DNA from: Paenibacillus silvisoli
Lineage (GTDB): Bacteria; Bacillota; Bacilli; Paenibacillales; Paenibacillaceae
Assembly: GCF_030866765.1 (NCBI RefSeq)
Contig: NZ_CP133017.1
Location: forward strand, 4,508,001-4,572,000
Length of the DNA: 64,000 nt
Direction: 5' to 3'
Position 1 is the first letter of the stretch. The number at the start of each line of letters is the position of its first letter. The position numbers and the translations under genes were made by a program. Under the pieces are notes generated by a model. That model ran no database searches, was not told the origin of the DNA, and was given only the letters and a program-made list of their open reading frames with translations. Of this stretch, positions 28,068-29,930 are shown piece by piece.

Positions 28068-28105
28068 TAAAAAAGCTGCCCCCATTAACGGGGTGCAGCT
28101 TATCT
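28068..28105. terminator. Terminator of the Agr-like operon
   Basis: AAGCTGC.CCCC / GGGG.GCAGCTT hairpin with an A run on the left that reads as a T run on the minus strand, directly at the end of the LytTR gene. Confidence 0.85.
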
Positions 28106-28501
28106 TTTTACAAATAGTAATTGTCCGTCACCGTATTCGGCCTTCAATTTTTTAAATTGCTGATCCGATATGGTGCAATATTTCGACTTCGGGTGAGTCA
28201 CCTGCTCGAAATACACTTTTTTCGACGCCGAGTCAATGAAGGCTACATTGTCTAGGTTTGCGGCATTATTGCGATCAACAATGCGAAACGCGTAGCCTGA
28301 GCTATTCAAAGCCTCAGTCCAATACTTCAGAGAACCCATTGTATAATATTGATCCTGCATGGTATGGATGATCAACCTGTCATAGACTCCGTCGAAATAG
28401 AGCAGCAAGACATCACTAATAAGGACGGACACCAGACCGGACTTTCCGTCGATATCCCTTGATACTGCTAAATATTCACAGCGCCGCTGCAAACCGATCA
28501 T
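28100..28501 (-). CDS. Stand-alone LytTR-family DNA-binding protein
   Basis: 133 residues made almost entirely of a LytTR DNA-binding domain; no receiver domain precedes it. Visible features: SDVLLLYFDGVYDRLIIHT, then YYTMGSLKYWTEAL and FRIVDRNNAANLDNVAFIDSASKKVYFEQ, the strand-turn pattern of the fold. It is the last gene of the operon membrane protein - agrB - agrD - LytTR and probably regulates it or distant targets. In known LytTR systems lacking receivers, such regulators are held inactive by a membrane partner; that role here for the 210-residue protein is inference. The start is uncertain, since GGGG abuts the ATG. Confidence 0.85.
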   Translation of the reverse strand: MIGLQRRCEYLAVSRDIDGKSGLVSVLISDVLLLYFDGVYDRLIIHTMQDQYYTMGSLKYWTEALNSSGYAFRIVDRNNAANLDNVAFIDSASKKVYFEQVTHPKSKYCTISDQQFKKLKAEYGDGQLLFVKR

Positions 28502-28515
28502 CCCCTATTGATTGA

Positions 28516-28638
28516 TTACTTAAGTAGTTCCTCCGGCGTTTCCGGCTGGTGAATGAATGCCCAGCTTGCTGTGGATACGATCAGTACTGCGCCCAGTGCC
28601 ATCACGGTTGCCAACTTGTACAGAATACGTTGTTTCAT
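28516..28638 (-). CDS. agrD: AgrD-like cyclic autoinducer peptide precursor
   Basis: 40 residues, start behind AAGGAGGTGAGACAAG, 6 bases after the agrB stop. An N-terminal amphipathic/hydrophobic helix (MKQRILYKLATVMALGAVL) is followed by the signal region STASWAFI and the conserved acidic tail HQPETPEELLK. In AgrD proteins AgrB cuts before the tail and closes a ring between Cys and the new C-terminus. Here the Cys position is Ser25, predicting a five-residue SWAFI lactone. The family call rests on position, size and the PEEL tail. Confidence 0.9.
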   Translation of the reverse strand: MKQRILYKLATVMALGAVLIVSTASWAFIHQPETPEELLK

Positions 28639-28644
28639 CTTGTC

Positions 28645-29160
28645 TCACCTCCTTGTCCGAATAATCGTAAGGGATTGCGCGAACAAGCTCGCGGTAAGCA
28701 CGGCAGATCCGATCAAATAGCTGGAAACGATGATAAGAAGTGATATGACCTTTAGAAGCGGGAAATACTTTTGCGGTATACGGGTTTGTTTTGCGATGTT
28801 GGACGGCGAGAAGACTAAACATAGAAGGAATGAAACCAAACTGAGCACGTTCATCGCAATGGGTTCCAGCGACACCAGGGATAGAACCGTCATAAGCAGG
28901 ACGGAAGCGAAGATGCATAGCCAGCCGGAGTTCAGGTGGTAGCCACCTGAAACCTGCCTTAATGCGGCGAATGCTATCAACGCGATAACCGATTCCTGCA
29001 CATGACCTGTGAAGCATGCAATAATCAGGGTGAACCCGATGATAAAGACAATATTGAAAAAATTTAACAGGAAATATTCAAGCACCTTCACGCTCGAAGG
29101 ATGCTCCGGTACCCTTGATTTAATGGATACGGCGATTTTATGGGACAACGTGTTTATCAA
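28645..29160 (-). CDS. agrB: AgrB-like membrane endopeptidase, autoinducer processing
   Basis: 171 residues, four to six membrane helices. The catalytic pair is present with the family's exact spacing: His75 and Cys82 in RQVSGGYHLNSGWLC (H-x6-C). AgrB is a membrane cysteine protease that cleaves the AgrD tail and cyclises the peptide. The gene starts inside the end of the upstream membrane-protein gene (ATGA overlap) and its last codons form the ribosome site of agrD, so all three are translationally coupled. Confidence 0.93.
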   Translation of the reverse strand: MINTLSHKIAVSIKSRVPEHPSSVKVLEYFLLNFFNIVFIIGFTLIIACFTGHVQESVIALIAFAALRQVSGGYHLNSGWLCIFASVLLMTVLSLVSLEPIAMNVLSLVSFLLCLVFSPSNIAKQTRIPQKYFPLLKVISLLIIVSSYLIGSAVLTASLFAQSLTIIRTRR

Positions 29161-29789
29161 CGGTTGATCTCCCTTTCTTTACGTAAAGAATAGAGCAGCA
29201 ACAAGATAAGGGATACCACAAAACCGATCAAACTGCCAAATACGTCAAGGAAGTACATCATGAACCCTAGCAGCACGATAAACGCGCCAGTCATGAATAA
29301 CACTAGCATATGTTCCCATTTAAATCTAAATTTTTCAAAATCCTTCGCGAAACCATACCCTCTTTTATAAATCTGCCAGCCCGTAATAATGCCGATCATT
29401 CCTGTAAGCAGCTGCACGATATGACCCTTCAACGGGTGAGCATGGATCTGATCCAAGGAGAACAACGAAAAAATAAGTCCCGCTTGAATCGCGATCATAC
29501 TCGCATATCCAAAGCATGCCATAACTAGCGATCCTAGTAAAGGGATTCGGGCTATAGTCCTAAAAAATATTATCGTCACGATCAGATTAATGACCGGAGC
29601 CAAGTTAGAAACAGCCGTTACTTCTTCTCGGGTTAGAAAATTTTGCAGGTTAATAATCTCGATAATAATCAAAGAATGACCTATGTATCGTTTGAAATCA
29701 AAGCGGAATACATAGAAAGCTAAAGCATAAACGGCCAGTCCTTCAAAGGTTGAGAAGAACATAAACGGAAAAAAATCCAATAACATCAT
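29157..29789 (-). CDS. Membrane protein of the Agr-like operon (AgrC-sensor-like, no kinase domain)
   Basis: 210 residues with about six membrane helices and a very short charged C-terminus (LRKEREINR); start behind GGGGACGATAG. It resembles in size and layout the membrane sensor half of an AgrC/ComP-type kinase but ends where the kinase would begin. No kinase gene is nearby. It overlaps agrB by four bases. Possible roles: peptide receptor acting directly on the LytTR protein, peptide exporter, or immunity. No family name can be given from sequence alone. Confidence 0.7.
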   Translation of the reverse strand: MMLLDFFPFMFFSTFEGLAVYALAFYVFRFDFKRYIGHSLIIIEIINLQNFLTREEVTAVSNLAPVINLIVTIIFFRTIARIPLLGSLVMACFGYASMIAIQAGLIFSLFSLDQIHAHPLKGHIVQLLTGMIGIITGWQIYKRGYGFAKDFEKFRFKWEHMLVLFMTGAFIVLLGFMMYFLDVFGSLIGFVVSLILLLLYSLRKEREINR

Positions 29790-29930
29790 CTATCGTCCCC
29801 GATCCAGCTATTCTCGTTGTATCGCCCCAGATCTGATTCGCTGGGACTATTTTTTAGTTGTCGAAAATTCACTCTCCCTGAAAATTATTATACAGCAAGA
29901 GTAGAGGGATTCAAGAGATAGAAAAAGAGA

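Follow-up and report, generated by a model that had tools for sequence, protein, structure and literature searches.

Agr-type peptide sensing is known to work through a kinase and response-regulator pathway, and an agr-like operon of Paenibacillus silvisoli raises the question of how a peptide signal could reach the DNA when the operon encodes neither a kinase domain nor a receiver domain. The operon lies in the window analysed here, a stretch of 64,000 nucleotides, in which a sequence-only reading had described four tightly packed minus-strand genes at 28100-29789, encoding a membrane protein, AgrB, AgrD and a LytTR protein. All four were present as placed and are listed here with the sites around them, in 5' to 3' order of the minus strand:

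29887..29914, minus strand: promoter-like site TTGAAT-16-TATAAT, 10/12 matches
29791..29833, minus strand: direct repeat GATCTGGGGCGATA / GATCGGGGACGATA, 14 bases, 29 bp apart, 12/14 identical, a candidate regulatory site only
29157..29789, minus strand: membrane protein (sensor) of 210 aa, kinase-less and putatively AgrC-type, from its open reading frame, homologs in related genomes, a predicted structure and profile matches to AgrC-like proteins
28645..29160, minus strand: AgrB peptidase of 171 aa with a TTG start and conserved His75 and Cys82 (Pfam AgrB, 7.8e-17)
28648..28653, minus strand: AGGAGG within the agrB end, ribosome site of agrD, read from the sequence
28516..28638, minus strand: AgrD propeptide of 40 aa, predicted ring S25-W-A-F-I29, tail HQPETPEELLK (NCBIfam AgrD TIGR04223, 1.4e-8)
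28100..28501, minus strand: LytTR DNA-binding protein of 133 aa without receiver (Pfam LytTR, 8.6e-7; predicted structure)
28080..28093, minus strand: terminator-like stem 3' of the LytTR gene (4 terminator-like sites against a shuffle mean of 2.5)

Profile searches agreed with the gene assignments of the sequence-only reading. AgrB with its His75/Cys82 pair, the 40-residue AgrD-like peptide (34.7 bits for TIGR04223 against a cut-off of 19) and the bare LytTR protein were all recovered, and Pfam found no kinase domain and no receiver domain in the operon. The membrane protein matched no Pfam or NCBIfam family at E<=1. His75 was kept in 179/182 rows (the other three being gaps) and Cys82 in 177/182 (four gaps, one Ala), while the AgrD ring position held S in 140, C in 18 and K in 6 of 164 rows, these AgrB and AgrD counts including the window two times, once directly and once as locus L004. 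The claimed overlap between the membrane protein gene and agrB exists, formed by the sensor stop and the AgrB TTG start, but it reads TTGA and not ATGA; the ribosome site within the agrB end does precede agrD (AGGAGG at 28653-28648). The promoter-like site and the terminator-like stem bracket the operon, such matches being near chance numbers: six promoter-like sites were found against a shuffle mean of 5.1, which is weak evidence by itself. The direct repeat is positioned in the leader, downstream of the promoter-like site and ahead of the first start codon; its score was matched in 2/500 shuffles of the 110-base leader, and its pattern has four occurrences genome-wide, two of them in this leader. 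A small helix-turn-helix-like gene, sometimes overlapping the operon start, was often seen just upstream of the sensor gene in related loci (13/85, judged by eye, including L005, L008, L010, L053 and L080). The copy in L005 gave no Pfam match, and the window operon has no such gene.

Relatives of the membrane protein were found in 79/196 related genomes by a search with the protein itself, and in 267/392 sampled genomes of the order by a 59-row sensor profile (E<=1e-6). At the class level this profile matched 41/398 genomes, of which 19 belong to the same family as the window; at the phylum level it matched 29/398, weakly outside that family and in short or kinase-length frames. From the search matches, not at random, 226 loci were fetched and 197 with distinct sensors were kept. 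The order sensor (TM), agrB, agrD, LytTR (L) recurred in 130/197 distinct loci, so that the four-gene arrangement is not due to chance and the conserved neighbourhood that the sequence-only reading had proposed to look for does exist. The remaining gene sets were TM-B-D (30 loci), TM-B-L (17), TM-D-L (5), TM alone (5), TM-L (4), TM-D (2), a kinase-fused TM with B (2) and others (2). The 39 named loci belonged to Paenibacillus and Cohnella, and plasmid pHD02 also carries the cassette. The operon type is a real, common and colinear agr variant without kinase and receiver, and no description of the four-gene system was found in the open-licence papers searched.

The origin of the membrane protein was approached through more distant matches of the sensor profile, which, in other families of the class, included AgrC-like proteins with frames of 412-453 aa (E 1.5e-14 to 2.0e-6). 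At four loci from three genomes of other Bacilli (L274-L277), an AgrC-like sensor was followed by AgrB, AgrD and a LytTR protein of 240-245 aa, in which Pfam identified Response_reg and LytTR in the three scanned (L274-L276). Residues common to the kinase-free and longer sensor forms were S13, E16, position 50, R54 and G94. E16 was kept in 96% of kinase-free rows and R54 in 91%, and Ser was present at position 50 in 88%, where the window has Asn; each of these three occurred in 12/13 longer forms. Judged from these alignments, the membrane protein is a homologue of the sensor portion found in AgrC-type proteins and is best read as a peptide receptor. Owing to this homology and to the identical gene order in L274-L277, the window operon appears to correspond gene by gene to an agr operon in the order C-B-D-A without the two phosphotransfer domains. 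It shares with the classical AgrBDCA system an AgrB with His and Cys, an AgrD with a ring and a PEEL-like tail, an AgrC-type sensor and an AgrA-type LytTR domain; it differs in its sensor without kinase domain, its regulator without receiver and a ring residue that is mostly Ser (140/164 rows).

Longer relatives of the sensor were not all kinases. The AgrC-like proteins of L274-L281 were rejected as such and called degenerate, since the five scanned (L274, L275, L276, L280, L281) had no HATPase match and the phospho-accepting His motif was absent by eye. L282 is a kinase by Pfam, and a separate HATPase kinase gene was found beside the degenerate AgrC in L279-L281 (HisKA-HATPase by Pfam in L279). 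The nine AgrC-like rows (L274-L282) grouped together, with support 0.97, in a FastTree tree that was built from 79 rows and midpoint-rooted. At L071 and L073, one protein each, beside AgrB, carries HATPase_c by Pfam and represents a sensor-kinase fusion; the four L071/L073 kinases (support 0.997) are nested within the kinase-free sensors, a position that points to a fusion at a later stage and possibly to a regain of the kinase. A 425-aa frame in L055 was rejected as a further fusion, Pfam finding nothing and the sensor standing at its C-terminal end, and was attributed to a long 5' extension. In three phylum-level loci (L320, L321, L323) a short sensor of 155-170 aa was seen as a separate gene beside AgrB; from their gene content these are read as a split AgrC, with a separate kinase gene in two of them (L321, L323).

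Structure prediction of the 210-residue protein alone, another proposed check, gave an AlphaFold model with pLDDT 88.6 and pTM 0.83. The sequence-only reading had correctly seen a membrane protein without kinase, but its estimate of about six helices fell short of the seven long helices of the model. The C-terminus and a loop near residues 143-157 are predicted to be cytoplasmic according to the positive-inside rule, applied by eye. A fold search of the PDB with this model gave no match at E<=0.001 (the best VIA-align Z, 6.6 over 59 residues, being uninformative), and a sequence search of the PDB gave no relative at E<=1. For the LytTR protein, the AlphaFold model (pLDDT 93.5) had as its nearest solved fold the LytTR domain of S. 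aureus AgrA (4g4k, E 7.4e-7).

Partial distance correlations among the four proteins were computed on the 130 loci with all four genes. On a log scale, AgrB-sensor (0.47), LytTR-sensor (0.42) and AgrB-AgrD (0.35) were followed by LytTR-AgrB (0.22), LytTR-AgrD (0.21) and AgrD-sensor (0.11). Over three scalings LytTR-sensor reached 0.34-0.43, against 0.21-0.24 for LytTR-AgrB and 0.17-0.22 for LytTR-AgrD, despite the location of the sensor and LytTR genes at opposite ends of the operon. Among pairs of loci at middle distance, LytTR-sensor (0.49) and AgrB-AgrD (0.41) ranked above AgrB-sensor (0.28) and the other pairs (0.11-0.15). After redundant loci had been thinned out to leave 89, LytTR-sensor stayed above LytTR-AgrB in 94% and above LytTR-AgrD in 97% of 300 subsamples, each of 60% and scored on linear distances. 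It also ranked above LytTR-AgrB in 90% of 30 draws that used 100 columns from each protein. The known pair AgrB-AgrD exceeded AgrD-sensor in 98%. AgrB-sensor was higher than LytTR-sensor in the whole sets (0.47-0.50) but lower at middle distance (0.28 vs 0.49). AgrD-sensor was the lowest of the six (0.03-0.11, and 0.15 at middle distance), the ring having only five residues. The pattern for LytTR and the sensor is compatible with an interaction of the two proteins, short of proof.

The most likely mechanism, which we regard as fairly probable, is that of a reduced agr operon (C-B-D-A) without phosphotransfer, whose sensor directly controls the bare LytTR protein. AgrB would cut and cyclise AgrD into a five-residue lactone (Ser-Trp-Ala-Phe-Ile), which would be received outside by the membrane protein, acting as an AgrC-type sensor without kinase. 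Through direct contact at the membrane, the sensor would then hold or release the LytTR protein, which is AgrA-like but has no receiver, so that binding of this protein to DNA would follow the peptide level without phosphorylation. We infer the processing of the peptide, its binding to the sensor, the contact between sensor and LytTR protein and the sign of that contact, as well as the phosphorylation-free nature of the signalling. Counted in favour of direct control were the LytTR-sensor correlation, the homology to AgrC-type sensors, the conserved unit, the short LytTR proteins of the own genome, the AgrA-like fold and the loci that hold sensor and LytTR without AgrB. Against it we counted the higher AgrB-sensor correlation in the whole sets, the kinase-less loci without a nearby LytTR gene (37/194, the 197 loci minus the three long-frame loci L055, L071 and L073), the weak AgrD-sensor correlation and the two-component genes beside some distant relatives.

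The loci without LytTR keep the conserved cytoplasmic loop and the C-terminus of the sensor at similar levels at most positions, the main exception being F149 (76% vs 35% in loci without LytTR). Docking of the LytTR protein at the conserved cytoplasmic loop was dropped as a line of evidence, since these loci keep most of the same residues. A LytTR profile search covered 29 genomes (G000, 27 with a TM-B-D locus, and G425). At E<=1e-3 five of them (G337, G340, G345, G296 and G308) gave no match at all, and in another six every matching frame was longer than 270 aa. By Pfam, G345 and G308 each contain a short LytTR frame, G340 has one of 171 aa, and G337 and G296 have none; in G323 a LytTR gene was located about 2.3 kb upstream of the sensor. 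Five loci among the 197 hold sensor, AgrD and LytTR without AgrB, and four hold sensor and LytTR alone.

Another possible explanation, which we consider unlikely, is a split phosphorelay: the sensor would recruit a kinase encoded elsewhere, which would signal by way of an unrelated response regulator, and the LytTR protein would be an independent DNA-binding protein. The genome (6.73 Mb, one contig, one AgrB match) does supply candidate kinases, with 13 HATPase_c_5 matches of which 12 are above the cut-off, but none of them lies at this locus. Its only two LytTR matches, in frames of 134 and 149 aa, are too short to include a receiver, and the failure to find any receiver-LytTR protein in this genome also speaks against such a relay. 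Within the 16 kb around the second bare LytTR protein of this genome (L093, 8444-8866), searches for sensor, AgrB and AgrD gave no match. The separate kinase gene beside the degenerate AgrC in L279-L281, and the short sensor, separate kinase and AgrB found as neighbours in L321 and L323, would fit a split relay. Against this, a same-strand gene for a kinase or response regulator lay no farther than 200 bp away in only 4/195 loci (L064, L065, L076, L078; the 197 less two kinase fusions, scanned with profiles built for this analysis within the fetched flanks, which for L004-L033 end downstream a few hundred bases past LytTR), and these were of other kinds, namely OmpR- and NarL-type regulators and HisKA kinases. 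An adjacent GHKL kinase, which the sequence-only reading had named as grounds for refuting its proposal, was absent in close relatives within these flanks, although kinase or receiver genes occurred among distant ones: a GHKL kinase stands 311 bp away in L052, a receiver-LytTR protein and a GHKL kinase follow the cassette in L285 (class level), and in L286 (class level) a receiver-LytTR protein replaces the bare one. A kinase acting in trans is possible because of these three loci and of the separate kinase beside a short sensor in the two phylum-level loci.

It is less probable still that the operon is a LytTR Regulatory System (LRS) with an agr signal attached, its membrane protein being an inhibitor of the LRS type that keeps the LytTR protein sequestered. 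Such a system would be mechanistically close to direct control by an AgrC-type sensor, and in HdrRM and BrsRM, as presented in PMC6193735, the gene for a receiver-less LytTR regulator likewise shares its operon with that of a membrane protein. The systems listed there, however, begin with the regulator gene and have repeats of 9 bp, spaced about 12 bp, just upstream of the -35 (PMC6193735); LRS-like operons of Bacteroides are given there with the reverse gene order. In the present operon the membrane gene comes first and LytTR last, with the agr peptide genes between them, no shared Pfam family was found for the membrane protein, and the sensor profile finds AgrC-like proteins. A scan for 9-bp repeats in 197 upstream regions of 220 bases gave 11 regions with at least 8/9 matches at offset 21 against 3 in shuffled sequences, and 6 and 0 regions at offsets 20 and 22 against 2 and 4; there was no clear excess of LRS-like promoter repeats. 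The fusion of agr and LRS ideas put forward in the sequence-only reading was therefore not sustained, and the sensor homology and the gene order of L274-L277 argue for an agr operon minus its phosphotransfer domains.

Finally, a role of the membrane protein as a helper of AgrD processing or export (like MroQ of S. aureus), or as an immunity or decoy protein, with LytTR answering another cue, would suit the high AgrB-sensor correlation (0.47-0.50) and the 30/197 TM-B-D loci without LytTR, but is very improbable in view of the missing protease family match, the homology to AgrC-type sensors and the 4/197 loci with sensor and LytTR without AgrB and AgrD.

Relatives of the sensor were also present in the temperate phages Abouo, Davies, Emery and Harrison. 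Genes gp44-gp47 of Abouo encode the sensor, AgrB, a product annotated as cyclic lactone autoinducer peptide, and LytTR. Davies, Emery and Harrison carry sensor, AgrB and LytTR-like genes (2.1e-8, 7.9e-9 and 2.7e-9, respectively, with our own LytTR profile) with, in between, a gene of AgrD size that the AgrD profile did not recognise in these three phages. The Harrison regulator was above the Pfam LytTR cut-off, those of Emery and Davies below it, and Davies and Emery have two sensor genes each. Sixteen viral contigs held the sensor, 13 of them with all four genes, some of which may be prophage edges. AgrB, AgrD and membrane proteins without ATPase domain had been noted in Abouo, Davies and Emery, according to excerpts of Hargreaves et al. 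2014 (PMC3901668), and these phages carry relatives of the present operon. The same excerpts mention no LytTR gene, whereas the gene next after the cassette was LytTR-like in all three (Abouo gp47, Davies gp48, Emery gp57); AgrA is stated to be absent from agr-bearing phages of Bacillus and C. difficile in the excerpted part of a 2025 review (PMC11945551).

A wider reading, plausible but in our view slightly doubtful, is that of a widespread and stable agr class without phosphotransfer, in which a peptide receptor with seven helices directly gates a bare LytTR transcription factor, and which temperate phages of Brevibacillus and Paenibacillus carry near integrase- or repressor-like genes, where it may serve to count lysogens. 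The variant without kinase and receiver would then be a natural, minimal pair of peptide receptor and transcription factor, in which the way an AgrC-type sensor relays peptide binding becomes testable without a kinase and which could provide small parts for engineered signalling. It would also draw attention to temperate phages as carriers of a peptide-signalling circuit, the regulator of which had gone under the annotation of a peptidase or a hypothetical protein. The LytTR-like phage genes annotated 'peptidase' were L094 4651-5019 (PHROG 15081), L315 3154-3519 and L316 3148-3504, and judging from their profile matches this annotation looks wrong.
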